NCBI GenBank assembly: GCA_964058845.1
Contig: CAXKVR010000148.1
Span: 79,636 to 143,635 of the forward strand
Direction: 5' to 3'
Origin: Carex sylvatica
Lineage: Eukaryota; Streptophyta; Magnoliopsida; Poales; Cyperaceae
Length of the DNA: 64,000 nucleotides
Below are positions 26,643-52,018 of the stretch, piece by piece (position 1 is the stretch's first letter; every line of letters begins with the position of its first letter). The position numbers and the translations under genes are program-made. The notes below the pieces were generated by a model. That model did no database searches. It saw nothing but the letters and a program-made list of their open reading frames with translations, and was not told the origin of the DNA.

Positions 26643-26655
26643 TTTCTCCCTCACT
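26643..26655 (-). other. Polypurine tract of the retrotransposon
   Basis: AGTGAGGGAGAAA on the minus strand directly abuts the 3' LTR, at the position where plus-strand DNA synthesis starts in LTR retroelements. Confidence 0.75.
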
Positions 26656-26685
26656 TAAAAATAAAGTTCAATCCTTTGAACTTAA

Positions 26686-29600
26686 CTACGTACCTGAACT
26701 GTCGAATAACTCAGGATATTGCTCGCGAATTTTCGTTTCGAGTTCCCATGTTGCCTCTTTTTCCGAGTGTCTTCCCCATTGTACTAAAACAAGTCTAATC
26801 GTTCGATTTCTTAACCTTTGCTCTTTTCTATCAAGTATTCGCATTGGTTCTTCTTTATAGGCCAAATTCTCATTAAGGTATAAGTCAGAATGGTCGATGC
26901 AGTGAGATGGATCTCGTACATATTTTCGAAGTTGTGACACATGAAACACCGGGTGTACCCGGTCCAAGACTGGAGGCAATGCAAGCTCGTAAGCTACAAG
27001 TCCTACTCGATTCAGAATCTGAAAGGGACCGATATACCGTGGACTTAGCTTACCCGATACTCCAAACCGATGTACTCCTCTAACCGGAGATACTCGGAGC
27101 CACACATGATCACCTTCTTGAAACTCTAAAGGTCTTCGATGTACATCAGCATATCTCTTTTGTCGATCTTGAGCTGATTTGAGTCGGCTCAAGATAACCT
27201 GTGTCTTCTCTGCCGCTTCTTGTATCAATTCTGGTCCTGTGGACGGATGAGTACCCGCCGGACCCCACCACAACGGTGTACGACAAATCTCTCCAGTAAG
27301 CGCTTCTAATGGTGGCATCCCGATACTTGAGTGATAACTGTTGTTGTATGCAAATTCAACCAAATGCAAATGGTCGAGCCAAGATCCTCGAAAGCTCAAA
27401 GCACACGCTCGAAGCATGTCTTCCAATGTCTGGATTGTTCTTTCTGACTGTCCATCAGTCTGCGGATGATGTGCGGTGCTGAATCTCAGCTTCGTACCCA
27501 TATTCTCTTGAAAACTTTTCCAAAAATGCGAAGTGAACCTGGTATCTCGATCAGATATAATTTCTCTTGGACATCCATGATATTTAACGAAAAATTTCAG
27601 AAACAAGTTGGCTAACGTTCGACCCGATGTATCAGGTCCGAGTGGAATAAAATGTGCCACCTTCGTCAATGTATCCACAATAACCCATATGGTATCGTGT
27701 CGACCCACTGTCCTCGGAAAACCAGATACGAAATCCATTGCAATAACTTCAAACTTACCTCTCTTCTTATTCAGCGGTTGAAGTAACCCAGCTGCCTTTC
27801 GTCGATCAGCCTTCACTTGCTGACAGACTTGACATTTCTCAACGTACCTTGTCACATCCCTTTTCATGTTCGGCCACCAGAAATATCGCTTCAGAGTTTG
27901 ATACATTTTAACTTCGCCGGGATGGATCGTGTATCCCGAATCATGTGCTTCGGATAGAACTAGGGTCTTCAAGTCGGAATCTTCAGGAATGCATATGCGG
28001 TTGCCAAACCGCAAGATACCCTCGTCATCAAGTCTAAATGGAGTGTCTCGGTCCGATTCTACATGTTCTCGAAATTTCTGACATTTCTGATCTTCGTGCT
28101 GCGCTACCCGTATACGGTCATGTAACTCCGGTCTCACCTCAATAGCAGCAGAAATAATGGACATACCAGCCGATTTATTCATACCCGCTTCTTCCTCGAG
28201 TAAGCGAGTTGCAACTGACTTTGCCAATTCGTGCGATGCTCCAACATGTAAATTCATCCTTCTCATTTCTTCAATCAACTGCACTTCACTTGAAATCACG
28301 CTTGCCAGGTTAACCTGATTCTTCCTACTCAACGCATCTGCTACCGCATTAGCTTTGCCTGCATGATACTGAATATCGAGATCGTAATCCTTCATTAACT
28401 CCAGCCACCTTCGTTGTCTCAAGTTCAGTTCCTTCTGAGTAAAGACATACTTTAAGCTTTTATGATCCGTGAAAATCTGGCACTTCACACCATACAAGTA
28501 ATGCCGCCAAATTTTGAGCGCAAAGATCACCGCTGCTAGCTCCAAGTCATGAGTCGGATAGTTCTGTTCATGTGGCCGTAACTGTCGAGAAGCGTAGGCA
28601 ATAACTTGCTCACCTTGCATCAAAACGCAACCCAAACCCGTACGGGATGCATCTGTAAACACCGTGTAGTCCTTTCCAGTTATTGGCATTGTAAGAATCG
28701 GAGCTGACACTAGCCGACTCTTTAACTCCTCAAAACTTCTTTCTTGTTTTTCACCCCAATCGAACTTAACACCTTTATGTAGCAACTCCGTAAGAGGGCG
28801 GGCTAATTGTGAGAATCCAGCTACAAACCTTCGATAGTACCCAGCTAAGCCGAGAAAGCTACGAATCTCTGTAACAGTTGTTGGTCTCTTCCATTCAGTT
28901 ACCGCTCGAATCTTCTCAGGATCTACCGCCAAGCCTTCACCCGAAACTATATGGCCCAAAAATGCCACCTTGTCCATCCAGAATTCGCACTTCGAAAGTT
29001 TGGCATAAAGCCGATGATCTCGTAGTCTTTGTAACACCACTTTAAGATGTGCCGCATGCTCCTCATATGAACGCGAATAGATCAATATATCGTCGATGAA
29101 GACCACCACACTGGAATCCAACAAATCTCTAAACACACGCTGCATGAGATCCATAAAAGCTGCTGGTGCATTTGTCAATCCGAATGGCATGACTAGGTAT
29201 TCATAGTGCCCGTACCTAGTACGGAAAGCCGTCTTCTCCACTTCACTTGGACATATACGCAACTGGTGGTAACCCGTTCTTAAATCGATCTTGGAATAGA
29301 CCGATGATCCTTGTAGCTGATCAAAAAGATCATCAATCCTAGGCAATGGATACTTGTTCTTCACGGTCACCTTATTCAACTCCCGATAATCTATGCACAA
29401 CCGCAGAGTTCCATCCTTCTTCCTTACAAACAGCACTGGTGCGCCCCATGGAGAAGTACTTGGTCGAATAAAGCCTTTCTCCAACATTTCTTCTAATTGC
29501 ACCTTCAATTCTTTTAGCTCAGCCGGAGCCATCCGATAAGGAGCCTTCGAAATCGGAATTGTGCCAGGTATCAAATTAATGTTAAACTCAATTTCTCGCT

Positions 29601-31269
29601 CCGGGGGTAATCCTGAAATCTCATCAGGAAAGACATCAACGTATTCCGAAACAATCGGAATGTTAGATATTTCTGGAATTTCAGTAGCAGTACTCATAAC
29701 CCTCACTAAATATGCTGTACACCCCGACTCAATTAAGTGCCTTGTCTCTATTGCTGAAATATACGGTACCACCTCTTTTAATCCTCTACACTTTAATGCA
29801 CATGTAGCACCACTTGACAATGCGAACTGAACGGTACGGCTCAAACAATCAATCGTAGCTAGGTGTTGAGTTAACCAATCCAAACCCAACAATGCATCAT
29901 ACTCAGAAATGTCCATGACCAACATTTCGGCTAGAAAATCCCTTCCATCTACTCTCACTTTCAGGTTTCGGCATGTCCTCGCAATTTGGGTAGTTGAACC
30001 GAGAGGGGTATGAACATCCAATACTCTCCCACTCGACTCCGTTAACCATCCACACTTCTCCACTAACGTACTAGATATGATCGAATTGCTACAACCCGTA
30101 TCAATCAACACATATGCAAGATGTCCCGAAATAGAAATAGTACCTGCTAGCAAATCAGTCTGAGTAGAAATAGGAATCAACTCGTCTCCTGCATTCGGTA
30201 GCTCTATTGCCTCTACCGCGTGAACACTGGCTCGTCCTCCTGCCCGGCCTTCCCTCAACTGTGGTGTAGGGCCCCGACCTCGTAGCGAAGGTATGCCTCC
30301 ACGTCCTCGCCCCTGGGGACCTCTATAACCACCACTGCCACTGCTCCCGGGTGTACCCGAAAAATTATTTGGGCAATCCTTGATCCAATGATTCTTGCTG
30401 CCACAACGGAGACAAGTCTGATTGAGGCGGCGACACTCAGATTCAGTATGTGGCTTCATGCAAATACGGCACCAAGGTCCAGTAGCTCCCGGGGTAAACT
30501 GAGGTACCGCTATCTGTCCTGTAGGGTATCTAGGGGCTTGAGGTCTAACCCCCGATCCACTCGCTTGCCTCCTTTGATCAAATTTAGGCTTCACATTTCT
30601 GGAGAGGGTTTGTTGCGCACTTCTCTTGAGATATACCTCTGTCTGCTCCGCACATCTCATAAGAGCTGGAACCCCTGCAGCTGTGGAATGATGTATGGCT
30701 AGTGCAATATTCGGGTCCAACCCGTCCAAATACTGCCTCCGGTATCTATCAAGATCCCTTTTCACATCTGGAGCATAGCGGGACAGGTCAAAGAACAAAC
30801 GGTTGTACTCCTCTACCGACCTTTCATTCTGTCTTAGGTTCAGGAATTGGCTTCTCAAAGCCTCCCGATGTAAATCACTCAAGAACTGCTCCCCAAACTT
30901 CTGTTCAAACCATTCCCAGGTAATCTCTCCTTCGCCCCCTTCAAACTCCATTTTAACTCCCTCCCACCAATGCCTACCAGACTTTTCAAGCAATTGTACG
31001 GCCAACTCCACTTTGTTCACCTCTGGCACTCGGCATAGGGTGAACTTTGCTTTCAGACTCACCATCCATTCTTCCGCAGCAGGATATCCCCCCGACCCAT
31101 CAAACCGAGGGGGTGCCAAACGCATAAATGCTTCATATAATTGTCGGAATTCCTCCCCATTTGCTCCAGCCACAGGAGCTGGTCCGCGTTCCAGATTTTC
31201 CGCTCTACGACCTCTTTCATAGGCCGCAATTAACATTTCTCCGAGATCTCTCTCCATTTGACTATTCAA
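26686..31269 (-). CDS. Gag-pol polyprotein, Tekay-like chromovirus
   Basis: A single 1527-aa frame without stops. The gag domain (about 40-230, including [11 protein letters not shown]) is followed by a CCHC zinc knuckle (C286, C289, H294, C299). The aspartic protease motif is IDTGCS, with D390. Reverse transcriptase carries FIDD at 724-727, then RNase H ([14 protein letters not shown]). The integrase has an HHCC-type zinc region ([13 protein letters not shown]) and a core triad D1179, D1240, E1276 with the expected 35-residue spacing. The C terminus (about 1465-1520: [13 protein letters not shown]...EATWELE) is a chromodomain-like module, which places it among Tekay/Del chromoviruses. All catalytic residues I can check are present, so the element may be autonomous. 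Confidence 0.97.
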
Positions 31270-31381
31270 TAATCAATAAGTTAATATTTCAATTCACGCA
31301 GTTTAACGTTACCAACCTAACTCTAGACTTACCCCACTCGCTTATCCTATCATGTCTGGTTAGGGTTTAAAAACAAACCTT

Positions 31382-31393
31382 GCTCTGATACCA
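31382..31393 (-). other. Primer binding site (initiator tRNA-Met type)
   Basis: TGGTATCAGAGC on the minus strand, nine bases inside the 5' LTR border, is the standard plant primer-binding sequence complementary to the initiator tRNA-Met 3' end. Confidence 0.9.
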
Positions 31394-31402
31394 ACAATTA
31401 AC

Positions 31403-33717
31403 TGTCACACCCCGGAACCAGGGGGCGCAACAGTTACGCCGTGAATATATATTTTCTATATACTCACGAGGCAAGAACGATGAGATGATTCATATTCATC
31501 CCAATTTTATCGGATAATTTAAATCTTTCAGACAAGCAGTTAATGAAAATCAGATAATTAAAACACATCCTACTTACAACACCTCCTACTTACAACACCT
31601 CCTACTTAACGAATTAAACATTTACACTACATAATTAAAATAAGTTTTACAAAGGTCTGGTTCAAAGGTTATACACAACAAAATATGATCTGAGTACTTA
31701 ACTAGTACAAAACGATCATTAATTAAGGCATATCTATACCTCTCCTTTCTTATCCTCGCCGCACGATCTCGAAATCCTATTCCTTCTTTCCTGAAAAACC
31801 CACGAGGGGGAAGAGGGGTGAGAAACTTATTCGCAGTTTCTCAGTGCAGAATTTAAATAGGGCTACTGGATTTGTAAGAAATCCAAAATCAGAATTAAAT
31901 CAATTCGTTAGTATATTAATCAGTTAAATCATGAAATGCAATTACTTTAAAAGGGAATTCAAGTGAACTTCTACTATTATCACATTCGGAAAAAAAATCA
32001 AAACGGAATTATTCAGGATGTTTGGACCTAAATGCAAACTCTCTAAGTCAGGTTGGAAAGATAGAAATCAGTTATCTATCTTTGTCGGCTTAACCGTTCT
32101 ATTGGTTCTGGTTTATAATTAAACATGCATATCAATCAGAATTTCACGGATAGCAATAAAGTAACTCGATCAGAAACAAAGATTATCAATACAGTAACAG
32201 TTTCACATCAATCACTATACCGCAGTTCAGTATTCCAACAATCACAATAATATATGTAATAACAGTATCCCCTACCCAACCGGTACTGGGTTCAGTGGGG
32301 TCATTCCCCAAATGCGCATATGGTTCCTGAGGCAAAGTCTAGCGTCGACTCTAGACTTTGCAATAACTATGATATAATATAACAATATCAATTCAGTACT
32401 GTGGTTTCATTCCATTATCAGAATCAAAGGAACAGTAAAATCGATAAAACCATACCAATATGCTAGATCATCCTAAATATAGCAATTCCGATATATCATT
32501 TACTTAACTATGCAATAATGCTATGATGCATGCAATTAGAAATTCAACATGCCATTATACGTAACTATTTAATTCTTAAAAATAAATCCCAAAACAGATC
32601 CCGTGAACCCCCGCACCTGATCACGTAAGATGCGTAGAGAATCAGCTATCACTAGATTCTGAACTTCCGACGATTTCGCTGAATCGTACTCGATAGGGTC
32701 TATGCCTATGTTAATAAAGCATAGATGAATTAATAAAAGACATTCAATCGATTTAAATACAAGTCAAGTCGATTATCGAGTCATAATGTTTCAAATCAAA
32801 TTCGAATTCGAAATTTCATCAAAAATCTAACAAATCACTTGAATTAGGGTTTCCAAGAGAAAAGGAAGACAAATCATATCAATTATCACAAATTAACAAC
32901 TAATCGAGCTAGAACTCGATTACTGAAACCCTAATTCGAATTTCAACCGAAATCACGACAAATCGAATAATTTAGGATTTTCAAGGAATTGCAAAAGAGA
33001 AAGAAATACCAAATTGAAGCTTTAGAATCGATCAAGGATCGTCAATTCAGCTCGAATCTCGATTTCCCGATCAGTTCGATCAGTTTCCGCGCTTAAATTT
33101 TCTCTCTCTCTCTCTTTCTCTTTTTCCTTTCGGCTAAACCTAGCTCTCTCTCTTTTTATTTCCGTGGAAAATGAAAGAAGAAGAAAGAGATTTAAGTATT
33201 AATTGAAATTTTGCAAATAAACCCCTCAAAAATAACAAAATTACATATCAGTGCGGATCATTCATCCGCACTGCGGATCCTCTCCATCCGCACTGCGGTC
33301 TCTCCATCCGCACTGCGGATCACCCAGCCGCATTCACTGCGCAGAAGAAAAAGTCCGAGCCTAGTGCGGACGCACTGAGGCCAGTGCGGATGCTCCCATC
33401 CGCATTCAGTACTTAGCGAAATTTTCAGAAGAGTACAGAACTCACCCGCAGTGCGTGTGCCCATCCGCACCACCATCCGCACCCAGAGATTTTTCAGCCG
33501 TTTATTAAGGAACTTGTCCCAGTGCGGGTGAAGCCACCCGCAGTGCGGGTCATCCATCCGCACTGGACCATTTTTCTATATTATAATTCAATTTTCGACG
33601 TCTTAACTCAATCAGTTAGTATAAAAATATTTCCAAGCATTAGACCTTTAACTTTTAAAACTATATTTAATTTAATCTTTTGAAATCTTATTATTTTAAA
33701 AGTTCCACTACGTTACA
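31403..33717 (-). repeat. 5' LTR of the retrotransposon
   Basis: The second 2315-bp LTR, with the same termini and internal GC-rich block (about 33245-33575) as the other copy. On the element's strand it precedes the primer site and the gag-pol frame. Confidence 0.96.
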
Positions 33718-34505: not shown

Positions 34506-34952
34506 AAAAATAAACCATGATTTATTCAAACCAGTAAATAAAATAAAATAAAATAAAATAAAAAATTCAGAACCGTGGAATAAATCCACGGTTCTAAATT
34601 TTTATTCAAAACCGTGGAAAAAATCCACGGTTTTGAATTTTTAATCAAAACCGTGAATTTATTCCACGGTTTAGGCATTTTTAAAATTCTGTCCAAACCC
34701 TGGTTATTCTTAATAATTTTTTTTTATTTTTGAGTATTTTTAAAAATGTCGGCTATTTTACAATTGTTCTAGAGCAAAAGTTCATAGAGGTGTTTTATAT
34801 AGTAAGTTATCTGACCTGTTTTACTAATTAACATTCAATGCAGGTAATGCTTTTACTCTTAATTTTTAACTAACAAAACTAATTTTATGGGTCAAAGGGA
34901 TTGTCCAGACAGCTGTCCACAGAAAAAAAAAAAAAAAATTTTACTATTAAGA

Positions 34953-35859
34953 GGTGGAAGTTCAAAAGGAATTCCATCCTCCTAAGTCCTAACTGTATGG
35001 CCTGTAAGCTCCCAAATTTGTCTTGAATTTGATTGATCTAAAAAGAAATGCTCCCTCAAAGGGACCAATGTGTCCTTTTTTACAGAGATAATGTACTCAA
35101 ATGGCTGAAGAGTGAATTACAAAAACCATATATAGAATGAAACAAAATCATGCACTACGTACTTCTGTTGATAAGTTCCACCATTTCTCAAATTAAAAAA
35201 ATAAAAATAAATAATATGCAGCTTCTATATATTTTCAGATATGATATATGCGTTAGTTTCAAATATCACAATTAATATTAGACATTTTAGGACTACAAAC
35301 ATTGAAGAAGAAAATTCAATTAAATTTTAATATACATAATTAAAAAAATTAGAATCATGGGTGGCATGATAAATAATTGTGTTGTTATTATAAAATTGAA
35401 GAAGAAAATTCAATTAAATTTTAATATACATAAAAAAAAAAATAAGAATCCGCCCCTGACTGCAACCAATATTGTTTTTCTTTCATTTTATTAATCACAA
35501 TAAAATTTGACATGATAAATAATTTGACATGGTCAACAACTCTTAAATTCATAAATGATTCGAAAAAAACTTATATCCTTCTGCCAACTGATTAATCTAT
35601 CTCTTTTTGAAGGCTCTGATTAATCCATCTCTAAGGTGCAAATTAATTAATTAAGAATATTGTTGTACCTCTGTCAAATTTCCTCCTTTCCATTATGTAG
35701 AAAACCCACTATAGATGCATCAACAGGCCAGCCATGATGAACACTGACCTTAACAATGCGAGTTATGCCGGAGACATCTATATCTTGCGCTGATCAACCA
35801 ACACCGTCACATGGCCCTACCTTCTTTGAGACAATTACTTTTCTGCTTGAAGCCTTCAT
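34953..35859 (-). pseudogene. Lectin half of copy B, decayed jacalin domain
   Basis: Exon 1 (35859-35669) begins [19 protein letters not shown] like copies C and D, but meets a TGA at codon 22. Exon 2 (about 35116-34953) has lost its acceptor (AG to AA) and stops after about 160 bp, without the C-terminal half of the jacalin domain or the donor used by C and D. About 190 bp further on is the right border of the Mutator-type insertion. Counting the pieces on both sides (217 and about 191 bp), the former intron to the carbonic anhydrase was about 410 bp, close to the 432 and 475 bp in C and D. Confidence 0.85.
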
Positions 35860-36672: not shown

Positions 36673-39600
36673 TTATTCCATGATCTCAAATGTGCCATTG
36701 CCGATGTCGTAATGGGCGCCAAACAACTTGAGGGTTCCTTTCTTCCACTTTTCCATTACAAATGGGTACGTCTTGAGGTTCTCTATTGATACATTCACAG
36801 CTTCCTGAAAATTTTTAACACTTTAGTATAATTGTTGTTATCATTATTGTCATTATTATTATTACAAAATATGTAAGTTTTTCTTTTCTTTCATGTAGGA
36901 TTTTTTTTAATCTAATATGGTTTTGCTCTAGCTAACCAATGTTTAAGTAGTATCAGTTATCATCCAAGCTGTGAAAATAACTTAAAATGGGACATCTGCT
37001 AATGCAAGTCACAATGCCACTTCATTTATGTACTTAATAATTTATTTATTTAACATATTTCCTTTCAGGTGGGACTGGATTAATCAACCAAGAAAAAAGA
37101 AAGTGGAAAAGGTTTAAAAGAACAATATTTTAGTACAAACTTCAACCTTTTCACAAATTGTGCATTGGTCATCCAAGGACTTGGTGCCGTGTTCAGCTTT
37201 AACCTTCATTCTTGCAGGGGAGCCTATCTTCACCCAATAAAGAATCTCACTGTTTATTTTAATTAAAAATCATGACGGAGAAGTTTGTCATAACTAAAAT
37301 ATAACATTGGTATATAGTACAAACAGTGCATCAGTCAAGACGGACAAACATTTTCATAGACATTAAGTTAAGGAGGAATTAGTTCGCTAATTGGCTATAA
37401 ATTATTAATTAACTAATTGCTCCGTTTTCCTTTAAAATTCCTCTGAATTAAATAACTTTTATTACATATTAATATATACCACTATTCCTTAAAGAAATTA
37501 TCTTTATTATATTAAGATAAGATGTTCTATATAGTTATATGTATATATTAAATCTAACAAAATAATAGCAAATATGTAATTTGCATACAGACTTACTGGC
37601 TGTTGTTTCCATCATATGTGACAGTCATGAGCTTCTTAATCCCATCACATTTTGAATGTCCAATCACTACTATGTTCTCCACCTAAACAACTCAATGATG
37701 TTTAAAACTCATACTAAAAGAGGAGCTTGACAAATCAATATATGTGTTGTGTTCAACAGTAATTATTGCATTATAGATATTTTACTTTACATCCATTACA
37801 ATCAAGAACATTGATTTGGTTTATCCATTGATTGAACCTTCTAATTAAATTTGGACAAATTCAAAAGTTTTCAATAACTCTTAAAAGGTCTGTTACCAGT
37901 GAGGCATATATGTTTTACTTCGACTCTCTTATCAAGTTATTATACTCTAAATAATGTCTCAAATTATTTCCAACTATCAAATTAATTAATGTATCAAATT
38001 ATTTGTACTTATTCCATCTGATTGATAACAGCATGGAGATCCAACATCAAGATCTTACCTTGAGGTGTAAAACAGCGTACTCAATCGCAGACCCTTCCCC
38101 AGTATATTTGTTCTGCATTCATACACAGAGGGGATTTTAAAGAATTAAAAAAAAAATCAAATAACTATAACAAACTTTATTGGAAGGAAATCACTACATC
38201 ACTAAATCAAATAAAATCATCAAATTTACTTTGTCAAAGGGAGGGACCATGTTGGCAATGTTGCGGACAGTGAAGGCCTCACCAGGATGGAATCTGAGAA
38301 TGATTGAGGGGCAAACTCTCGAGTCTGAGCAAGCAAACAACATAAACTACCACACAAAAACCAAAATCAATATACCAGAATTATTGATTTCACCATTAAT
38401 ATAAATATTTACAAGGGGTACACACATACACTCGTGTCATTTTTTATTTTCTTATTTTCAATCGAGGAACCTGTGGAATTTTGTGGGTCATGTAATTGTT
38501 ACTCTATTAGCAAAAGAAAAAACAATTACGAGAACATTTCCGGTGTGGGTTCGAAGAACGTAAAACAGTGACAAAAATCATATATACCTTGGGCCATTGT
38601 CCATTCCTGAGTGAATCAAACACCATTGGCTTCTTGCTGTAAAATTTCATAAATTAAAAAGATATACAAATTATATACAAATATCTCAAAAGAATTAAAG
38701 AGAGAATACAAAATCAGCCTAAAAATTAATTATGAATGGAATATGCAGTTATGCAGATATACTGACTCATAAACCTCGGTCTTGAACTGCTTAAATCCAG
38801 TGATTAATCTCTCCACCGGATCCATCTCCTGACAAATTTCACAAAATCAAAATCAAACTAATCAAATTCAACAATCCAACGAGATAAGATCAAAGAAGTT
38901 AATTGCAATATTTAACAGGGAGAAAGAAGTAGAATAAAAACAAAATAAATTGAACTATTTTTTTATATGAGGCTCAATTGAGGGAGGATATTATTCTCTG
39001 ACAATTATTGTTTTAGAGGAGAAGTTACATAAAAAGGTTTTAAAGCCTAACATTTAGTAAAATCCAATTATAATTGTGAAAATGAAGGAAATTAGATTCA
39101 AAACAGAGTTCCAATTTCTATCAACCTTTATGTGCACACACATGTCGATGAGGCAAACATGGCTACGCAAGTAAGCTTAATTGCAGATAAAAAGAAAAAA
39201 GTAATAAATTTTGCAACTGCTGTTTCCACTTCTAAATTCAACAATAATAATTTTACGTACCATGTTGTTTATCACATAAACTCCAAGTGCGTCTAGCAGT
39301 GATTCAGACCGTCCATAAAAACCAATAATTTGACCATTAATGGCTGAGAGTTCAAAAGGAATTCCTCCCTTTCGACCGTATGGCCCATAAGATCCCAAAT
39401 TTGTCTCAAATTTGAGTGACTGAACAACAAAAAATCCGTCAAAGGAACCCGTGTGGCCTTTTACGGAGGTAATGTACTCCGATGGCTGAAGAGTGAACTA
39501 CAAAAATCACATCATGAAACAAAATTATGCACTACCCTTTCGTCAGTTTCGCCATTTATTGAAGTAAAATTTAAAATATATATATATGCTGCCTTTCTTT

Positions 39601-40026
39601 CAAATAATCAAATAACAAGATAAACCAAAAATAAAGGATCATAATATTACCTATAGTAATCATATTATACCTTGACAAGATTTGACATGATAAATCCCAT
39701 TAATACTGCACGATCAATATGAGGATTCTCAAATCAAGTACTTAATTACTGCTATGACAGGTAGTATCTATAAAATTGCAAATGAATAAAGAAGCTAGTT
39801 GTACCTCTCTCAATTTTCCTCCTTTTCCGCCCCACCGGCCGGTGCTTTCCTCCCGACCATTGCGTAGAAAACGCACTGTAAGCGAATCAATAGCCCCGCC
39901 ATAACGAACACTGACAGAAACAATGCGAGTAATGCCAGTGATGTCCATATCTTTTGCTGAGCCACCAGCACCACCACATGGTCCTACCTTCTTTGAGACA
40001 ATTGCTTTCATACCTGAAGCCTTCAT
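36673..40026 (-). CDS. Jacalin-lectin / beta-carbonic anhydrase fusion protein, copy C
   Basis: Nine exons: 40026-39805, 39497-39261, 38828-38767, 38636-38588, 38346-38230, 38112-38059, 37682-37597, 37249-37147 and 36804-36673. They sum to 1062 nt, 353 aa, all junctions in phase with GT..AG borders. Exons 1-2 (1-153) are a full jacalin-type lectin domain ([31 protein letters not shown]). Exon 2 ends at a strong donor (ATG|GTACGT). The next exon starts after TTTGTCAG with GAG-ATG, giving [12 protein letters not shown]. Residues 155-353 are beta-CA: Cys196, His256 and Cys259 for zinc, Asp198-Arg200 dyad. The start ATG has an in-frame TGA just before it. No targeting peptide is seen, so a cytosolic protein that binds glycans and hydrates CO2 is inferred. 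If the lectin donor is not used, the locus would instead be two adjacent genes 432 bp apart. Confidence 0.82.
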
Positions 40027-40199
40027 TCAAGTCAATAAAATGCACTAATAATTAGAAGATTATATTAGTGAATTAGATAAGTTTTGACCTTTGTATTAAG
40101 AAGAAGGTTGATCCATACCATATATATTTTTGGCGAAATTAGGCACAAAGGACTAGTGATAATGATATTATATCCGCTGTGTTTGTTGATTCTTTGGAG

Positions 40200-40474
40200 G
40201 AAAGGTAGACTAGCTAGTGTTTGCTGGATGGTTGTTTATATACTATAGAGATGTTTCTAAAGTTTCACATTTGTCAGTGTGAAAATTATAATTTGGCAAG
40301 TATCCTAGAATATGGTCAAACTTAATACTGGATTAAATCTATTCTAAAATATAATGATGATCACAGGGGAGATGAAACTCCTGACGTTGCTCAATTTTTG
40401 AGGTACTGGTGGTGGAACTTCCAACACAATGCATGATATCGTTTCGGGAAATGAAGCGCAATAGAAAAGCAGAT
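40200..40474 (-). promoter_or_regulatory. Promoter of fusion gene C
   Basis: TATATAAA lies on the minus strand at 40235-40242, about 210 nt before the start codon. The block is conserved as an inverted copy upstream of the MATH gene (43528-43765). Diverged copies lie upstream of the lectin pseudogene (46500-46690) and fusion gene D (52170-52330). Confidence 0.7.
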
Positions 40475-40479
40475 TTGAT

Positions 40480-43086
40480 TAATTATTTAACCTTTAATAG
40501 AGACTAGAATAGGTCACTACCGACTCATGGTAGATCGTGCCATAAAAGAAAAGTTGTATGCTCTAGACCTTTCACGAAATTAAAAAGAATAGAACTAGGT
40601 CTTTTTACAAATATTAATACGCTTTTTATTGGAAAAATGATAATATTTTAACATAATCTATGTAAAATTTGTTAATGGGCACAATGTATGCTCTTTTTGA
40701 AACTAAAACTTTGGCAAAATTTTAATTTATATAAAGCTTCATATTAGTTGAAAATATACTATAGTAAATACAAAAAATATAATGGCAAATAAGTTATACA
40801 AAAATTAATGTGAGGCTATATGGTACTATGCATAACATGGATTGATTTGTATAGTATGAATTAATATTTTCATTTTCAAAGTCTAAGCAATTGATTTGAA
40901 CCGCTCAAGATGACCTCCATAAGTAGGGGCGTAGCCACTAACATTCAATGTAAGTTAATTGATCTTCATCTTTATTTATTTTCCAAAAATTTGTGTATAT
41001 ATATGATTTTTTAGATAGTTTTTTTTTTTTTTTTTTTTTTTTTTGCTTTGAAGGCCCGTAGGCAAAAGCATTATAAATATTGTAAAATTGATTCCTCATT
41101 CGTAGTATAAAAAATTTATATAATTGAGCCGTATTTATGTTTGATTTTCATAGTTTGAAAATTTACCTCCTCCCTGAGTATATGCCTCACTTTCTTCAAG
41201 AGAAAAATATATATATACATTTTTTAAATTAAATAAATAGAGATAATATGAGAAAATGAGGTTTGTTATTATAACAAAATAATAATATAAGAAGAAGCTA
41301 TATTTAAATGAATGAAATGTTAATATAGTAAAGTATATAGAGTGAGGTTGTGGTACTTTGTAATGTGAGGATTGTTTCATGTATTGGGTTCATATCTTTG
41401 TTTTCAAAGTCTAAATAATCGGTCCGAACAGCTTAACATGATTATCATATGAAAATATACTTGGAAATCAAATTTTATAATTTTTGGAATTTTTTTACTA
41501 TATTTTTTTTTTGGTAGGTAGAAAATCATCACTTGTGGATGGTCTAGAATTTTTAGATCAAATAATTTTTTAATTGTTCCAAAAAATAGTAAAGATATTT
41601 CAAAAATATAAAATTTGATCTTCAAGTATATTTTCATATAATAAAAATAATGAGACGTTTAGATCGACTATTTAGACTTTAAAAATAGAAATAGAAATTC
41701 AATGCACGGAACAATCTGCGCATTGCAAAGTACCATATGTAAAAATATATAGAGTATGGTTAAATTGCACTATTGGTTTTGTAATATTTGTTTAGATAGA
41801 TACAAAATCGCTTCTTCTGTATCATTTAAAAACAGTGATATTGTATCTATCTAAATAAATAATATTTTAAAAAATATATATATAATGTTAATGAACTGTG
41901 TACAAATAAAGTTAACTTTTACATGGTTCGAAATTTTCAAACTGTATGTGTATGTTGAAGTTATTTTAGCACAGCGCGCGTCTGATCTCAACTCATTAGA
42001 CACTGTTAATGTGGAATTTTATGCTACGATAACGTTTTTTGTACTAGTTGACAGCGTACATACGATTATGGGACATGTGTGGTTAATTCATGCTTGCATC
42101 ATGCATCTGCCTGATTAATTGGCATGCAATTAATATCTAGGTCCAAGGCTTAATTGTGTACGTATTCGAGGTTTTCACATTCTTTCTAAATGGCATAAAT
42201 AGTAGTTGCCTCACTTAATTGTCTGAATCTGCGTGCAGTGTTAGAGAAATTAAGAATGTTAAGCATTTTCATAAATTCAAAACTAATAATTTTATCTATT
42301 TAATTTATTGAGATCATTTAACTTTTGTGTAAAATGAAATTATAATATATTTGATTTTTTAGCTTTCTCGATTTGTATTTTGTAATTCCATCCCTGTCCG
42401 CATGTAATGTGATAATTATTTAATTAATATAATTGACAGTGCATTATATTATATTCCATTTCTGTTCCAATAAACTTCCCACAGATTCATAATTTTTTAA
42501 AACATACGGCAACTCATAATTTATTAAACGGGAACGCTCATTATATTATGTTAGAATATTATCATTTTTCTAATAAAAAGTGTATTAATATTTGTAAAAA
42601 GACCTAGTTCTATGAATTTTTTACTAACAATAAATAAAAATAAAAAATTAACAAACCAACTTGATTGATTTGTTTTTACAAAAATCATAAGTATCGAGAT
42701 GCCTATTCATAACGGATTTTTTTTTTTTTTTTTTGCTATGTCGAATTGATATTTCGGTTCATATAGTTTTCATAATTTTTCAATCCATTTGTTTAGTTAT
42801 CGGTGTAGCCACGTGTTTGTTTTTTAATTTCCACCCTGTGCCGAATAACTAAATGGTGTTTTTTTCTTCCGCTCATATAACTAAAAAAATCAGTTATGTA
42901 TGTATTCAACAGCATTTTCTAAAAATATCTAATTGACAAATCAACATCACATGTGATGTTCTTAGATAATAAAAATAGATTATTTTTTCTAAAATCGATC
43001 AATCAATATTAAATAGATGGAAATATAATTTTTAAAGAATATTTGATCTAGTTCACATAATAATTACACAAAGATCTAATAAAAAT
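40480..43086. other. Intergenic region with degenerate MITEs
   Basis: No gene is visible. About 40870-40930 is a single MITE arm. About 41341-41750 is a foldback MITE: GTGGTACTTTGTAATG faces its complement near 41740, and both arms contain the ATACTTGGAAATC / AAATTTTAT block. About 41753-41880 is a short deletion derivative of the 43087 family (GAGTATGGTTAAATTGCACT at its left end). The remainder is AT-rich. Confidence 0.6.
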
Positions 43087-43486
43087 GAGAAGGGTTAAAA
43101 TGCACTATTGGTTTTGTGCCTTAACCATACTCTACGTCTCTATCTCCGATTACAATGCTCAAACAGTCAATTCAAACCGTTCATTTTGTTCTACAAATTA
43201 AAATGTGCTTAGAGACCAAATTTTATATTTTTTTGGAATTCGTTTACTATTTTTTTTTAGATAGGTACAAAATCACTGTTTTTGGATGATCTAGATGCAG
43301 TGATTTTGTATCTATCTAAAAAAATAGTAAACGAATTCCAAAAAATATAAAATTTGGTCTCTAAACACATTTTAATATATAGAACAAAATGAACAGTTTG
43401 GATTGACTGTTTGAACTTTGTAAACAGAGATAGAGACGTAGGACATAGTTGAAGTACAAAATCAATAGTGAATTTTAACCATACTC
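43087..43486. mobile_element. MULE-type MITE (400 bp)
   Basis: A nearly perfect foldback with 9-bp duplications AATAAAAAT at 43078-43086 and 43487-43495. The ends are GAGAAGGGTTAAAATGC and, inverted, GAGTATGGTTAAAATTC. The arms meet near 43290 (ACAAAATCACTG...CAGTGATTTTGT). This is the type copy for the family also seen at 19553, 21734, 41341 and 52867. Confidence 0.92.
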
Positions 43487-43527
43487 AATAAAAATTTACA
43501 TAATTTTTATTGGTAGTGGGACCGAAA

Positions 43528-43765
43528 TGCTATTGCGCTTCATCTCCCGAAACGACACGTATTTTAGTTGCATAAGTACCTCAAAAGTTGAGCTACACAA
43601 TTGATGAGCAACCACTATACCAGTATTAACTTTGACTATATTCTAGAATACTTGCAAAATTATAATTTTCACATGGACAAATGTGAAACTTTAGAAACAT
43701 CTCTATATATAGTATATAAACAACTATGCAGCAAACACTAGTCTAACCTCGTCCAAAGCTATCAA
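43528..43765 (+). promoter_or_regulatory. Promoter and leader of the MATH gene, inverted copy of a fusion-gene promoter
   Basis: TATATAAA lies at 43713-43720, about 55 nt before the start codon. The whole block is the reverse complement of about 40200-40474 with small indels. Shared stretches include GATGTTTCTAAAGTTTCACA, AATTATAATTT and CGTTTCGGG-ATGAAGCGCAA. Homology runs to within about 15 bp of the MATH start codon. Confidence 0.8.
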
Positions 43766-43775
43766 CTGAATAGTC

Positions 43776-44267
43776 ATGTTGCTTCTAATCACCTTATTCT
43801 TCACTTTTCTAATGACCACCCCTCATGTAGTAGCAGCCACCGGGTTCCTTGCCGGATCAAAAACCCTCGAAATCACAGACTATTCTGTCATGAAGAAAGT
43901 AATCAAGACAGGGGACTACGTTCAATCTGACATATTTACTGTCAGTGGCTATCAATGGGCGATCGAATTCTATCCACAAGGATGTGTTTCTACTGCCTCT
44001 GATTTTATATCAATAGGAGTCAGGCTGATAAATCCAACAAACTACGTACTGGCAACATCCACCCACCGTTTCCATGACTGGAACACATCAACATGGTCAA
44101 CCGATACCCTTGTGATACCCAATGGGGTTACCTTTTCATCAACGCATACCAGATGGGTTTATTACTGCTTCATCAAACGGTCCGACTTTGAGACCTCGAG
44201 CTATCTGAGAAGTGACACACTTGTGATCAAGACTAATCTCTGGGTTGCAAAAGAGATCTCTAGGTGA
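43776..44267 (+). CDS. Small MATH-domain protein with signal-peptide-like N terminus
   Basis: An intronless frame of 163 aa. Residues 1-21 (MLLLITLFFTFLMTTPHVVA then ATG) are hydrophobic and end in small residues, like a cleavable signal peptide. Residues about 24-160 form one MATH (TRAF-like) domain: YVQSDIFTVSGYQWAIEFYPQG near the start, then WVYYCFIKRSDFETSSYLRSD and LVIKTNLWVA, the end typical of plant BPM proteins. BPM proteins use MATH to capture substrates for CUL3 ubiquitin ligases through a BTB domain. No BTB follows here. A secreted or membrane-entering substrate-binding module, or a decoy derived from a BPM gene, is inferred. The frame is clean and has a good promoter, so I regard it as a gene. 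Confidence 0.8.
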   Translation: MLLLITLFFTFLMTTPHVVAATGFLAGSKTLEITDYSVMKKVIKTGDYVQSDIFTVSGYQWAIEFYPQGCVSTASDFISIGVRLINPTNYVLATSTHRFHDWNTSTWSTDTLVIPNGVTFSSTHTRWVYYCFIKRSDFETSSYLRSDTLVIKTNLWVAKEISR

Positions 44268-44740
44268 TAACAAGCAATCAATGGATTTTGCTACTGCCGA
44301 TGTTTCTCTTGAGAACAGCAAATCAGCTGATGTTTTATTTTTTTTTGTTTTTTAATTATTAAGTATGTTTAATGAAGTACCAGTTTGTGTTACCTTGATG
44401 TTTGAATTGGATAATTTAATTACATTTTTTTTTTTACCAGAAATATTATTTTTTTGGAGAATGCCTTCTTCCTTACCGTACATATATAAGCGCCCAAATT
44501 TGTCTCAAATTTGAGTGATCTAACAACAAATTATCCACAAAGTCACCAATGTGGCCATTTACTGATTTACAGAGGTGATGTACTCGAATGGTTGAAGAGT
44601 GAACTACAAAAATTATGCATTTACTGATGAAAAAATATATATTATGTAGTTTTTTTGTATTTTTGGTAAACCAAGAATAAACTAAAATGAAATATCATTG
44701 TATTACATATATTAAAAGCTGCAACCAATAATATTTTTTT

Positions 44741-45620
44741 AGGGTTAATTTCTTATTTGCCCTTGAAGATAACTAGACAAATCCAATTTCTTATTAACCC
44801 CTTAAAACTTGAATATATCTTATTTACCTATCAACTTAAACAACTCTTTCTTATTTACCCATCATACAATAACTCTTGATCTAACTCTATTTTAAGTTAT
44901 AATTTATCCTTAATTTACTTCTAATTAAGAAATAAAAGACATAATTACTCTTACTTTCTCTTCTTGAGTTCTTTCTCTCGTTGTTCTTGCTCCATGTTGC
45001 TATTTTCTCTGCAATTATTTATCATATATTTTGTTGAATGCTTTGTGACATTGCAGGAGTGACTTAGACCTAGAGCTCGTAACTAATAGTCATTCATTCT
45101 ATTGATTTGACTAATTTTCTAATATTTTGGATCCAGAACAAAAGGTCCAATAGGGACCATAAAGCAATTGCTAGTTGCTAGTTGCTAGTTTCTATCATAA
45201 AATAACCCATTTTACTTTGATAAAACCACGTCGGTCACAAAATATAGAGGTGCCAAACTATAACCTAAAACTGATCTCATGTGAATTGCTAGAAAAATCA
45301 TTGTAATTGTTCTCTTGTATCTAAGAGAGGAAGATGAGCAAGAAGAGGAAAGAACTATATATTGTGTAGAGGATTGAAATGTTTATTATCTTATCACACC
45401 CAAAAAAGGAATTGACCGGTTGAGGGAAGGAGAAAGAGCAATATTGGAAGAAGAGAACACAAGGATATAATGGGAAATTAAGTAAAATATTAATGACTGA
45501 AATTAATTTGATGGGGTAAATAAGAAAGATATGTAAAAGTTGAGGGATACTCAAGATAAATCAAAGTCTGTAGGGAGAAATAAGAAACTTGATAAGAGTT
45601 GAGGGATATATAAAAAATTA
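44741..45620. mobile_element. Non-autonomous inverted-repeat element of about 880 bp
   Basis: The left end AGGGTTAATTTCTTATTTG and the right end, inverted AAGGTTAATTTTTTATATA, define terminal repeats. Inside them, blocks such as TTTCTTATTTACCC and GGGTAAATAAGAAAG face each other. No transposase frame is present and the flanking duplication was not clear. Confidence 0.65.
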
Positions 45621-45658
45621 ACCTTACTTTTATTACCACTATATAATATTATATATTG

Positions 45659-46062
45659 GAGTAGAACTAGGTTGTTCTTAAGTTCACCAAGCTCTTTGGT
45701 GAACTTAAGTCTAAAATCCGTCAAAACGGTTTCAAATGACGAATTCGAACCGTTAAAACCCGCCTACCTTATGAATGATGCGTCGATTTTGAACATTCGA
45801 ATCAATTTTGTATAAAGTCAATTGGTCAAAATTAGAAGGTTAATAAATTAATTTTAATGCATTCATTTTTTTAAATGTTTTTTTTACCGCTTAACTTTAT
45901 ATTAAATTAATTCGAATATTTAAAATTTTCACATGTAGATGCATTACTCGTAAGGTAGGCAGATTTCAACAGTCGAATTCAATATTTAAAGCTAATTTGA
46001 CAAATTTTAGACTTGAGTTCACCAAAGAGCTTAATGAACTTAAGAACACCCGAGTTCTACTC
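45659..46062. mobile_element. MULE-type MITE (404 bp) inside the lectin pseudogene
   Basis: 9-bp duplications TATATATTG flank it (45650-45658 and 46063-46071). Terminal repeats start GAGTAGAACT and contain GTTCTTAAGTTCA and CTCTTTGGTGAACT in both arms. There is no coding sequence. Confidence 0.92.
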
Positions 46063-46499
46063 TATATATTGCACGATATGATGATTGTTGTTGTACCTCT
46101 GTCAAAACTCCTGCTTGTCCGCTCCACTGGTCGGTGCTTTCCTCCCGACCATTACGTAGAAAATGCACTGTGACTCTGTGAGTGCATGAATAGTCCATCC
46201 ATGACAAACACTGATCTTCTCAATTCGGATAATGCCGGTGATATCCATGTCTTTCTTTGTCCCGCCATTACCACCACATGGCCCTGCCTGAAAACAATTA
46301 AATTTCCACTTGAAGCCTTCATTCAAGTCAACACAATCCACAATAATAATTATTTATAAGATTATTAGTGAATTAGATACATTTGTCTCTAATTATGTTA
46401 CATATGGACATTCATTTCCTAACAAAAGCAAAGTTTAGACCTTTGTACTAAGTAAAATGTTAATCCATACCATATATTTCTGGGGAAAATGAAAGCAAC

Positions 46500-46690
46500 T
46501 AATGACTAGTGAATAGTAATGATGATATTATTGCTTTGCTTTGGTGAAGTGTCACCTGGTGGTTTCAGCATGCTTGTTTATATACTACAGATGTTTATAA
46601 TGGTTCTTAATTATTTGTCCATGTGAAACTTTTAATTTTGAAAGCATCCTAATTAAATATGGTCAAAGTGAATAGGGGAATGTATATAGT
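46500..46690 (-). promoter_or_regulatory. Diverged fusion-gene promoter upstream of the lectin pseudogene
   Basis: This matches the copy C promoter in order: TTGTTTATATACTA, AGATGTTT, CATGTGAAA and ATATGGTCAA. It shows that the pseudogene was duplicated together with its promoter. Confidence 0.6.
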
Positions 46691-47119
46691 AGTTGCTTTG
46701 GAATGGGATTCGGTGCTCTTCAAATCCCTGCCATTCTCTCTCTCTCTCTCCTCTTTCTTTCTCTCCCACGTGAGTATAAATAAGAAAAAGAATAACACAA
46801 TTATTGTCTTGTCTTGTCACAAAACGAACATATCTAAATATAGGATTATGTATATCATTTACGTCGGAATAATCTATGAAAAAGATTAACAAATATTTGT
46901 AGCAAAACTGATTTCATGAAATAGTGCTGGCCGGTTTATCTCATTATAAATTATCTGCATGCAACATAGTGGTTCAATGCTATAGAATACTAAGATGAAA
47001 ACAAGAAATAGATCAAAATGCATCATACAATGCTGGAACAAGTAAATGCCACCACAATTACATATCACAAGATCAAAATGCATCATACAATGATGTCTCA
47101 ATGCAGCAGTGTCATTAAA

Positions 47120-50100
47120 TTATTCTATGATCTCAAATGTGCCGTTGACGAAGTCATAAAGGGCACCAAACAGCTTGAGTCTTCCCTTCTTCCACTGTTC
47201 CATCACAAACGGGTACGTCTTCAGGTTTTTTACTGATACTTTCACAGCTTCCTGAAATTTGTTGGCACTTCAGTATAATTGTTGTTATTATTACCATCAT
47301 TATTATTATTACAAAATGATGTAAGTGTTTCTTTTCACTCTTGTAGCAATTTTTTTAATACCAAATCACACAGATTATACACTCATATGGTTTTGCTCTA
47401 GCTAACCAATGTTTAAGTAGTATCAGTTGTCATCCATGATGCGAAAATAACATAAAATGGGTCATCTGCTAATGCAAGTCACAATTCCACTTCATTTATG
47501 TACTTAATAATTTATTTATTTAACATATTTCTTTTCGGGTGGGACTGGATTAATCAACCAAGAAAAAAGAAAGTGGGAAAGGTTTGAAAGACAAATATGT
47601 TAGTACAATCTTGAACCTTTTCACAAATGGCGCATTGGTCATCCAAGGGCTTGGTGCCGTGTTCATCTATAGCCTTTTTTCTTGCAGGCCAGCCCATCTT
47701 CGCCCAATAACGAATCTCACTGTTTAGTTTAAAAATCATAAGACGGAGAAGTTTGTCAAAATTAAAATGACAACATTAGTATAAAGTACAAACAGTGCAT
47801 CACTCAAGATGGACAAACATTTTCATAGATATTCAGTTAAGATGGAATTAGTTTGCTGAGTGGCTATATTATATAATGGATGAATTAACTATATCTATGC
47901 ACAATGTTTTTCAGTTGAAAATAAATTACTGAAGTTGTGAACAGATATTAAATCTAACAAAATAATGAGTTTGGCTAGTATAACATCAGTGTCATTTCAG
48001 CCTATATAACACCAACTCTAAAACCTATCAAATCGACTTCGAACGACTAATTCAAACCGTTCAAACCAATTTACATTGTGTGTGATGCATTTACATACAA
48101 AATTTTTATATTTTCGAGTTATTTTAGTATCAAATCAACTGGTAAAAATATTAAAAAATTAATGTATTAAAATTAACTTAAAAACTCACATATTTGACTG
48201 TTTGACTTAATACTAAATAAATTCGAAAAGTTATAAATTTTGTATGTAAACGCACAACTAATGAAGTAGATCAGTTTGAACGGTTTGGATTTATCGTTTG
48301 AAGTCGATTTGATAGATTTTAGAGTTTGTGTTATATAGATTGAAATGACACTGATGTTATACTAGCCAAACTCCAAAATAATAGCAAATATGTAATTTGC
48401 ATACAGACTTACGGGCTGTTGTTTCCATCATATTTGATGGTCATGAGCTTCTTAATTCCATCACACTTGGAATGTCCAATCACCACTATGTTATCCACCT
48501 AAACAATTCAATGATGTTTAGAACCCTCATAGTAAAAAAATAGCTTGACAAATCAATATATGAGTTGTGTCCACAGGTAATTATTACATTATAGATAATT
48601 AGATATTTTACTTTTACATTCATTACAATCAAGAACATTGATTTTGTTTATCCGTTGATTGGACCTTCTAATTAAATTTGGACCAATTAAAAGTTCTACC
48701 ATTATTATTAAAAAGTCTGTTACCAGGGAGGCATATTTGTTTTTATTGGACTCTCTTATCAAGTTTTGATGCACTAATTAATGTATCAAATTATTTACTA
48801 CTGTCAAATTAATTAATGTATCAAATTATTTTTACTTATTCCTTCTTCTTGATAAAAGCTAGCGTGGTGATCCAACTTGAAAGTCTTACCTTGAGGTGCA
48901 AAACAGCATACTCAATCGCAGACCCTTCACTGGTGTATATGTGCTGCATTCATACACAGAAATGACTAAATCAAATTTTACTGAAAGGAAACATACAATA
49001 ATTTCATCATATTTATATTTATTAAAATTTACTTTCTCAAAGGAAGGGACCATGTTGGCAACGCTGCGAAAAGTAAAGGCTTCACCAGGTTTGAACCCAA
49101 GCATGATTGTTGGGCAAGCACGCGAGTCCGAGCAGGCAAACAGCATAAACTGTCACACAAAAACGAAACAAATTGCATTGTTATTAAATAATTATTCAGT
49201 TGAGCGAGACATAAATTAGTGGTGCCATGTTTCATTCTCCTATTTTCCGTTGAGGAAACTATGGCAAGTTAAGTCTCCTGCACATAATTCTTTTCGCAAA
49301 AGAAAGAAAAATTATGACAGATATTCGGTCGAAGAAGTGAGAGGCCAGTTAAAAAAATACAGTTATTCTTGACACAAAACAAGAGCAAATTTAATCCCAA
49401 CTCAGCAGAAATATTTGGCAATTAGAGCTAGTTATGGGAATTGTGAAAGACAGCTGTTTTTAATATAAATTTTTTTCATTGAAAATAATACAAATAGATA
49501 CTATCAAGAAGTAAGAATTTTATATTGCTTCCTATTTCCTAAACGAGGGTCTAATTTGTAAAGGGAATTTTTTTTCTCCATCACAGTTTCAAAAAGGAAA
49601 CAGGGAAATATATTTTGAGAAAAGGGACTGGTTGGCTAAAGTATCTATAATTATCTTGTGGAGTAATACAATGATGTTAAGGTGTGAAAACAATCGAAGA
49701 TGGGGGCATGCTGTCAGTTTGGTAGCATTGTTTCACTGGGATTTCAAAATTTGATTAGGAACAGAGAGAAAAGTTGTGTTTACAATCAATTACATCATAT
49801 AATTGTAAGTTCGATAGATCTATGTATGTTGATTTATTTTCATTAGCTTCCGTAAGTTGTGCATTTAGAAATATATTTGGTTCATTTTGAAACCTAGTTA
49901 TAGTAATGATGTTCATTTTACTGCCCATAAATATTTATTCTATCCATCCTGCATAATGCAGCAGTACAATATGAAACTGCTTGACTTTACCCTATATTTT
50001 TGTTCACTTTAAAAAATAATATTATAGTGTGCATTCAATAAAACATGTATTATGCAATACTTAAATGTGTAATATGATCCATTGTGCAATACTCAAATCC

Positions 50101-52018
50101 TTCAGTATGATGCAAAAGCAGTCCGGTTTGTATTTTAAGAGCAATTCAAACAAGTTCCAAAATTTAAATTATTCCAATCTTCAAATATGCATTATCATGC
50201 AAATGGAGTCATGTTTGTGGTTTAGAGCAATTCAAATAATGAGTTCCACAGTTCAAAACAACAAGTATACATTTAAAAACTAGTTTGTCCTCTGTTGATA
50301 AATGTGTATTTTGAATATTTCAAATGATGAGTAAAGAAATGAATTCAAGATATTTATGCTACTGTATTAATCAAACGGAAATTAGTGTATATTTTGTAAA
50401 ATGACGAATTATTCTGTGGTAGCCAAATACAGAGTTTCAGGGGTGTAAAAAGATTTAATCATGAAAAAATTTCAGGTGTGAGTTCAAAGAACTTGAAAAA
50501 CAAACTACATAAATCATACCTTGGGCCATTCTCCATTCTTGAGGGGACCGAACACATTTGGCTTCTTGCTGAAAAAATTCAGAAATTAGAAAGATCATAA
50601 ACAAGTCATATAAAAATCTCAAAAGTATTACAGATAGAAAGAATACAAAATCAGCCTCCAAAAAGAAAGTATTTCATAAATGGAATATGTCAGTTATGCA
50701 TATATACTCACTCATACACCTCGGTCTTGAAATGCTTAAATCCGGTGATTAATCTCTCCACCGGATCCATCTCCTGACAGATTTCACAAAATTAAAATTC
50801 AAACTAATCAAATTCAACAATCCAACGAGATAAGATCAAAGAAAGTTAATTGCAATCTTTAAAAGGGAGAAAAAAAGTAGAATAAAAACAAAATATATTG
50901 AAGTATTTAAGGAGATAACTATTTGAGTGAGGATATATATTATTCTCTGACAATTGCTGTTCTAGAGGAGAAGTTACATAAAAGGGTTTTAAAGAGTTAT
51001 CTGGGCCTTTTTACTAACAATTAGTACCCACAATTGTTAAAAAGGAAATCCAATTATAATTGTGAAAATGAAGGAAATTAGATTGAAATCAGAGATTCCA
51101 ATTTCTAATCTACCTTTATTCGCACACGCATGTCGATGAGGCAAATATGGCTAAGCTAGTAAGCTTAATTGCAGATTAATAGAAAAAAACAATAGATTTT
51201 GCGACTGCTGTTTACACTTTTCAGTTCAACAATAATAATTTTACATACCGTATCGTTGATCACATAAACTCCAAGTGCGTCAAGCAGTGATGCAGACCAT
51301 CCATAAAAACCAATAATTTTACCATTAATGGCTGAGAGTTCAAAAGGAATTCCTTCCTTTCGACCGTATGGCCCATAAGCTCCCAAATTTGTCTCAAATT
51401 CGAGTGATCGAACAACCAAAAATTCATCAAAGGGACCCATGTGGCCTTTTACCGAGGTAATGTACTCCGATGGATGAAGAGTGAACTACAAAAATAACAT
51501 CATGAAACAAAATCATCCACTACCCTTTCGTCAGTTTCACCATTTATTGATGTAAAATTAAAAAAAAAAAATGTTGCATTTCTTTCAAATAGCAAGATAA
51601 ACCAAAAATAATGGATCATAAATTTATAATATTACCTATAGTAATCATATTATAAATTGACAAGATAAATGATTTGGCATGGTAATTAAATACTATTAAT
51701 ACTGCACCATATGAGGATTCTCAAATCAACTGCTTATATACTGCTATGGCAGGTATTATCTATAGAAGTGCAAATGAACAATGAAATTTGTTGTACCTCT
51801 GTCAAAGTTCCTCCATTTCCGCCCCACCGGCCGGTGCTTTCCTCCCGACCATTGCGTAGAAAACGCACTGTAAGTGCATCAATGGCCCAACCGTGTCGAA
51901 CACTGACTGCAACAATGCGAGTAATGCCAGTGATGTCCATATCTTTTGCTGAGCCACCAGCACCACCACATGGTCCTACCTTCTTTGAGACAATTGTTTT
52001 TCCTCTGGAAGCCTTCAT
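47120..52018 (-). CDS. Jacalin-lectin / beta-carbonic anhydrase fusion protein, copy D
   Basis: Nine exons: 52018-51797, 51485-51249, 50773-50712, 50568-50520, 49149-49033, 48943-48890, 48498-48413, 47719-47617 and 47251-47120. They again total 1062 nt, 353 aa, with every exon the same length and phase as in copy C. Residues 1-153 form the jacalin domain ([26 protein letters not shown]). Exon 2 ends ACG|GTATGT and exon 3 starts after CTGTCAG, giving [12 protein letters not shown]. The carbonic anhydrase half keeps Cys196 (CSDSR), His256 and Cys259 (GHSKCDG). Intron 4 is about 1.37 kb against 0.24 kb in C, and intron 7 holds a MITE. Product and location are as for C. Conservation of the junction in two diverged copies is the main argument that the fusion is real and selected. 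Confidence 0.82.
47967..48373. mobile_element. MULE-type MITE (407 bp) in intron 7 of fusion gene D
   Basis: 9-bp duplications CAAAATAAT lie at 47958-47966 and 48374-48382. Terminal repeats begin GAGTTTGGCTAGTATAACAT and extend about 80 bp. Copy C preserves the empty site (CTAACAAAATAATAGC at about 37555-37570), so insertion followed the duplication that separated C and D. Confidence 0.95.

Follow-up and report, generated by a model that had tools for sequence, protein, structure and literature searches.

Within a 64,000-nucleotide (nt) stretch of Carex sylvatica DNA (contig CAXKVR010000148.1, positions 79,636 to 143,635; hereafter the window, with positions counted from its first letter), two paralogous genes, copies C and D, place the exons of a jacalin lectin directly ahead of, and in phase with, those of a beta-carbonic anhydrase (CA). 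We judge the chance that C and D give a fused lectin-CA product, possibly beside a CA-only product, to be slightly better than even. The initial annotation had proposed such a fusion. Its splice geometry stands, and a strong in-frame acceptor precedes the CA in both copies; on the other side, a jacalin donor that is family-wide, an intact CA in the sister copy B, and a leader-like stretch in front of the CA leave the proposal only partly upheld.

When the models were rebuilt from the DNA, each copy gave 353 open codons followed by a stop. The nine exons (222, 237, 62, 49, 117, 54, 86, 103, and 132 bases) have the same lengths and phases in C and D, and GT-AG borders were found at 16 of the 16 introns of the two genes. 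The rebuilt models thus agree with the nine-exon parity and 353-residue length described in the initial annotation. They also reproduce the spacing it had given between the jacalin and CA parts, intron 2 being 432 bp in C and 475 bp in D, and the consensus donor and acceptor that it had placed at the exon 2-3 boundary are GT-AG in both copies. The jacalin start ATG is immediately preceded by an in-frame TGA in both C and D.

Both parts of copy C, of which copy D is a close paralogue, are readily recognized. Residues 14-148 match Pfam PF01419 (E 2.8e-37) over profile positions 1-136 of 136, hence a complete jacalin domain, and residues 192-348 match PF00484 (Pro_CA; E 2.9e-42) over profile positions 2-155 of 156. 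The closest solved relative of the lectin is 1zgr, a mannose/glucose-specific lectin (E 8.3e-42). In C the predicted sugar-site loops read GPCGGAGG at the N-terminal end and GRSESLLD, aligned to GRGGDFID of 1x1v, further on; the second is GWSASLLD in D. We assume that sugar binding would involve the N-terminal GG loop and the Asp of the C-terminal loop. For the CA part, the nearest solved relative is 1ekj (E 2.3e-73), which we take to be the pea beta-CA. Aligned to 1EKJ, copy C keeps Cys196, Asp198, Arg200, His256, and Cys259, presumably the Cys-His-Cys zinc ligands and the Asp-Arg pair, and the same motifs are found in D and B. The residue after the third zinc ligand is Asp260 in C and likewise Asp in D; it is Gly in copy B and in all six CA domains of five PDB chains (five of the 32 chains matched). 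The Gln of the "GQ.P" motif is kept in C and B and is Glu in D, so that near the active site D differs at three places from residues shared by all six PDB domains (Gln to Glu, Asn to Ser, and Gly to Asp). Judged by alignment, these conserved neighbors of the zinc site, the Gly after the third ligand and the "GQ.P" Gln, are not fully retained in C and D, although they do not define the family. With Asp in place of Gly next to the third zinc ligand, CO2 hydration by the predicted CA part of C and D is uncertain.

The best support for a fusion is the strong in-frame acceptor before the CA exon. We scored acceptors with a matrix trained on 20 such sites in C, D, and B, a small set from one gene family from which both exon-3 sites were left out, and applied it to the AGs of intron 2 beyond its first 40 nt. 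The exon-3 acceptor was the top AG of intron 2, with 16.5 bits in C and 13.0 bits in D; the next AG reached 4.6 bits in each. Against the training acceptors, whose leave-one-out scores ran from 0.4 to 14.9, the C site ranked above all 20 and the D site above 17. For background, we scanned both strands of the window away from the family loci, 84,940 positions in all. Only 3 of 4172 AG sites scored at least 13.0, none reached 16.5, and among the 1464 ATGs not one was preceded within 30 nt by a phase-0 acceptor scoring 13.0 or more. The jacalin donor, if used, needs a partner, and the exon-3 acceptor is the best candidate. In copy B the corresponding context is still T-rich and scores 8.9 bits without its AG; a change of one base in C and D may have created the acceptor, or B may have lost an ancestral one.

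The coding sequences of C and D do not differ by a single indel in 1059 bases, with ∼6.7 expected in the 459 jacalin bases (P about 1e-3) and 8.8 in the CA bases (P about 1e-4). Introns 1, 2, 3, 6, and 8 of the same pair show 23 gap events among 1572 aligned bases, introns 4, 5, and 7 being too diverged for good alignment and excluded from this count. Synonymous divergence within the pair is 0.14 for the jacalin and 0.36 for the CA. Identity is 89 to 95% over exons 1-3 with introns 1-2 and 91% in intron 8, and it is far lower in introns 4, 5, and 7. Gene conversion between C and D is possible.

Besides the narrow base of the acceptor matrix, several observations weigh against a fused product. 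The donor behind the jacalin exon is a family rule and by itself no evidence of fusion. We read 20 loci of the 47 jacalin matches in a 64-Mb genome set, which is possibly incomplete and in which only the best candidates were scored. Two of these loci are C and D. In each of the remaining 18, some of them identical or nearly identical duplicates (C15 with C105, C41 with C299), a GT donor directly follows the last jacalin strand. Three jacalin genes seem to end in a tiny stop-bearing exon (LP..stop in L010 and L021, WDQ-stop in L009), and L011 has a second jacalin domain, without a Met of its own, ∼155 bases downstream. Local alignment of intron 2 with other jacalin terminal introns gave a weak match between copy C and L021 that was equaled in 0 of 100 shuffles; the seven remaining comparisons were near background (5 to 67 of 100 shuffles). 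On the side of the fusion, a short terminal jacalin exon within intron 2 was considered and rejected, as candidates scored at most 1.2 bits save for one AG of 4.6 bits that lies 29 to 30 nt before the CA exon. If exon 2 is instead read through into intron 2, 27 codons follow before a stop that falls at the same site in C and D, and the jacalin may end at this tail. Differences between C and D in the tail fall 3, 3, and 5 by codon position without any indel, resembling those of exon 2 itself (6, 6, and 8), and because of this resemblance we lowered our confidence in a fusion and raised that in two separate genes. Selection also acts unevenly on the two halves. The CA half is clearly constrained, with a ratio of nonsynonymous to synonymous substitution (dN/dS) of 0.29 (bootstrap 0.18-0.47; 200 codons), and the jacalin half more weakly, with 0.57 (0.34-1.05; 153 codons) overall and 0.73 (0.31-2.83) for exon 2 alone.

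Copy B adds to this side of the balance. Its order is that of C and D, with jacalin (from 35859) followed by CA (23867-20774), and its jacalin has suffered a stop, a 31-nt deletion, loss of the exon-2 acceptor, 2-nt and 7-nt insertions, and loss of the 3' end. Despite this dead jacalin, its CA is intact from the same MDPVE codon as in C and D. Were disablements spread evenly over the 459 jacalin and 606 CA coding bases, all six falling in the jacalin would have P of about 0.006. In B, TG replaces AG before the first CA exon, and 9 nt upstream of MDPVE the frame is closed by a stop; therefore a full-length CA product would begin at MDPVE. The CA of B, a predicted gene, thus seems to have persisted in the absence of a working lectin, and hence to be separable from it.

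The sequence before MDPVE points the same way. The run upstream of the MDPVE ATG is free of ATG for 202 nt in C, 206 nt in D, and 221 nt in B, where other introns carry one ATG per 43 bases (0.023 per base). The chance of such a run is 0.02 to 0.05 per copy under a first-order chain of the stretch and 0.006 to 0.009 at the intron density, for copies that are not independent, and ATG-free runs of 191 to 208 also occur in 3 of 20 other introns. Leader identity is 75% (123/163) between B and C and 74% (128/173) between B and D, with introns of these pairs at 52 to 76%. Pyrimidine-rich tracts lie ∼100 to 130 nt upstream of MDPVE in all three copies, and a TATA-like box in C is not conserved in D. 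To judge from its composition, the stretch mildly favors a CA that has, or once had, a 5' leader to itself, and the exon-3 acceptor may survive from a former 5' intron of the CA.

Much of this evidence would be explained by two adjacent, co-duplicated genes without any fused mRNA, in which the jacalin ends in intron 2 and the same interval holds the promoter and leader of a short stand-alone beta-CA beginning at MDPVE. We hold this to be a serious possibility, though short of an even chance. It would account for at least six disablements in the jacalin of B against none in its CA, for the in-frame stop before MDPVE, for the 202 to 221 nt without ATG in B, C, and D, for B-C and B-D leader identities near the top of the intron range, for the pyrimidine-rich tracts, and for a read-on tail without gaps between C and D. 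Several solved beta-CAs, moreover, start at about the MDPVE point, their alignments beginning from residues 1 to 6 of 4wam, 2a8c, 3qy1, and 1i6o, which we take to be bacterial enzymes. However, the 3' end of the jacalin and its 3' untranslated region would have to share 432 bp with a promoter and 5' leader, D does not conserve the TATA-like box seen in C, and nothing in this scheme accounts for so exceptionally strong an in-frame acceptor in both copies.

We regard it as improbable that a fused transcript is a by-product of which one half is functional, with the CA constrained and the jacalin drifting, or that the protein is a decaying relic. The jacalin dN/dS values, including an upper bound above 1, the three changes near the active site of D, and the death of two of the four jacalin copies would suit this explanation, but neither C nor D has a frameshift or stop across 353 codons, and the jacalin lacks the indels expected of it. 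Least probable by far is an artefact of assembly or duplication. The locus is tandem and repeat-rich, and the end of the window is the end of the contig; nevertheless, we disfavored this explanation since jacalin-CA adjacency is shared by three diverged copies (CA synonymous divergence 0.36 to 0.60), and in addition the window contains no N and sequence homologous to the C/D interval adjoins the CA of B.

In the fusion that we narrowly prefer, transcription of C and D would begin upstream of the jacalin ATG, and the phase-0 jacalin donor would be joined to the sole strong acceptor of intron 2, just before the CA exon. The product, with 353 residues and an estimated mass of ∼39 kDa, would comprise a jacalin lectin, some five linker residues, and a beta-CA core, with no evident targeting peptide. 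Since beta-CAs form dimers or larger oligomers, oligomerization of the CA would make the lectin multivalent. A CA-only product from the internal start, the only start that remains in B, may coexist in C and D because a leader-like stretch remains before the CA's own ATG. A more elaborate proposal, which we offer tentatively and think rather unlikely, is a dual output, a lectin-CA chimerolectin and a CA alone, in which the standing phase-0 donor of the jacalin has been spliced into an adjacent CA that keeps its start, and in which the zinc-site-altered CA may be an oligomerizing or salicylate/CO2-sensing scaffold and not an ordinary anhydrase. If made, the C/D protein would couple sugar recognition to a beta-CA. 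The locus would also offer a testable route to gene fusion, with phase-0-donor lectin exons beside a strong in-frame acceptor and a sister copy without the join.

Among known systems, the monocot chimeric jacalins (dirigent-jacalin proteins such as OsJAC1) and other chimeric jacalin-related lectins are alike in combining a jacalin with an unrelated domain in one predicted protein of a tandem family. In C and D, by contrast, the partner is a beta-CA and the lectin is N-terminal, whereas the domain order of OsJAC1 differs and its lectin is not N-terminal. With plant beta-CAs (pea 1EKJ; Arabidopsis betaCA1-4), C and D share the Cys-His-Cys zinc ligands and the Asp-Arg pair. Those enzymes carry an N-terminal extension; C and D do not, having jacalin in its place under the fusion model, and they have Asp for Gly after the third ligand. 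The Arabidopsis betaCA2 and betaCA4 isoforms are a model for the CA-only product, although their N-termini govern cell location and include no lectin domain. According to one study, these N-termini are exchanged via different transcription starts, betaCA4 having a unique first exon (PMC5226100). As N-termini are swapped in plant beta-CAs, a locus with two outputs would not be without parallel.

Literature searches aimed at the combination found no report of a jacalin/beta-CA fusion in the portions of the sources available. Jacalin chimera partners that a review names for plants are dirigent, kelch, F-box/FBA, kinase, Rx-CC, and ricin domains (PMC5536079). The word anhydrase is absent from the available text of PMC5536079 and from that of PMC5485960. 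Because the former counts 172 superfamilies co-occurring with jacalin overall and assigns 7.3% in eudicots to an "other" class, an unremarked database entry of the jacalin-CA kind may exist. The same review links jacalin chimeras to plant defense (PMC5536079). Two further papers describe the isolation of Arabidopsis betaCA1 and betaCA2 through their interaction with NRB4, a protein of the salicylic-acid response, and a study of tomato betaCA1 in immunity (PMC5533460 and PMC10341916).

Table 1. Jacalin and CA features of the window, in window coordinates
Feature	Position	Strand	Remarks
Copy C gene, two-domain model	36673-40026	-	Nine exons
Copy C exon 1	39805-40026	-	Jacalin N-terminal half with start ATG
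Copy C exon 2	39261-39497	-	Jacalin C-terminal half; donor ATG/GTACGT at end
Copy C intron 2	38829-39260	-	Junction intron, 432 bp; final ∼200 nt without ATG, leader-like
Copy C exon 3	38767-38828	-	First CA exon (E-M-D-P-V-E); strong acceptor TTGTCAG/GAG
Copy C exons 4-9	38636-38588, 38346-38230, 38112-38059, 37682-37597, 37249-37147, 36804-36673	-	Remaining beta-CA
Copy D gene, two-domain model	47120-52018	-	Nine exons
Copy D exon 1	51797-52018	-	Jacalin
Copy D exon 2	51249-51485	-	Jacalin; donor ACG/GTATGT at end
Copy D intron 2	50774-51248	-	475 bp
Copy D exon 3	50712-50773	-	First CA exon; acceptor CTGTCAG/GAG
Copy D exons 4-9	50568-50520, 49149-49033, 48943-48890, 48498-48413, 47719-47617, 47251-47120	-	Remaining CA
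Copy B jacalin pseudogene	34925-35859	-	Six or more disablements; exon 1 from 35859 and exon 2 at 35116-34925
Ty3/Gypsy long terminal repeat (LTR) retrotransposon	24328-33717	-	Between jacalin and CA of copy B
Copy B CA	20774-23867	-	Seven intact exons from MDPVE exon; acceptor AG absent (CTG)
Fourth jacalin copy	44380-46322	-	Exon 1 from 46322 and exon 2 near 44611; decayed
Further CA copy	3728-4951	-	Fragment; last two coding exons recognizable

The Gypsy element that separates the two parts of copy B has two identical 2315-bp LTRs, a 1528-residue open frame, and a weak chromodomain match. Because the element is young, it probably did not cause the decay of the B jacalin. Repeat-like sequence in inverted orientation flanks it at 34755-34495 and 24079-24326. 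No CA match follows the fourth jacalin copy as far as copy C.

Among the best candidates scored in the genome set, the 7 matches to PF00484 and the 27 matches to the CA protein all fall within C148, C465, and C458. C465 was rejected as a stand-alone CA comparator, being a different CA type that we assume to be betaCA5-like and lacking a jacalin match in its locus L028. C458 was rejected as a comparator for the ancestral 5' end, holding only the last four CA exons in decayed form. For these reasons, neither was of use in tracing that end. The CA relative on C458 (L052, 11195-13220) has a frame break in its final exon and an Asp after the third zinc ligand. Among the jacalin loci of the set, those of C15 (900-1863 and 16295-17258) and C105 (292097-293060 and 307468-308431) do not differ in the 1500 downstream bases compared, which would fit one block repeated ∼15 kb apart on both contigs.

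Two neighboring genes of the window belong to other families. A large CC-NB-ARC-LRR resistance-type gene occupies 8389-12284 on the plus strand, and an LRR-like stretch in another frame follows from 11697, with a match under the curated cut-off. A MATH-domain gene lies at 43620-44264 on the plus strand, opposite to the jacalin-CA genes (PF22486, E 1.1e-16; open reading frame 43776-44264). Its upstream sequence, 43620-43766, is 85.5% identical to 40331-40185 in the upstream region of copy C, and this gene, though unrelated, thus carries a copied jacalin-CA promoter region.

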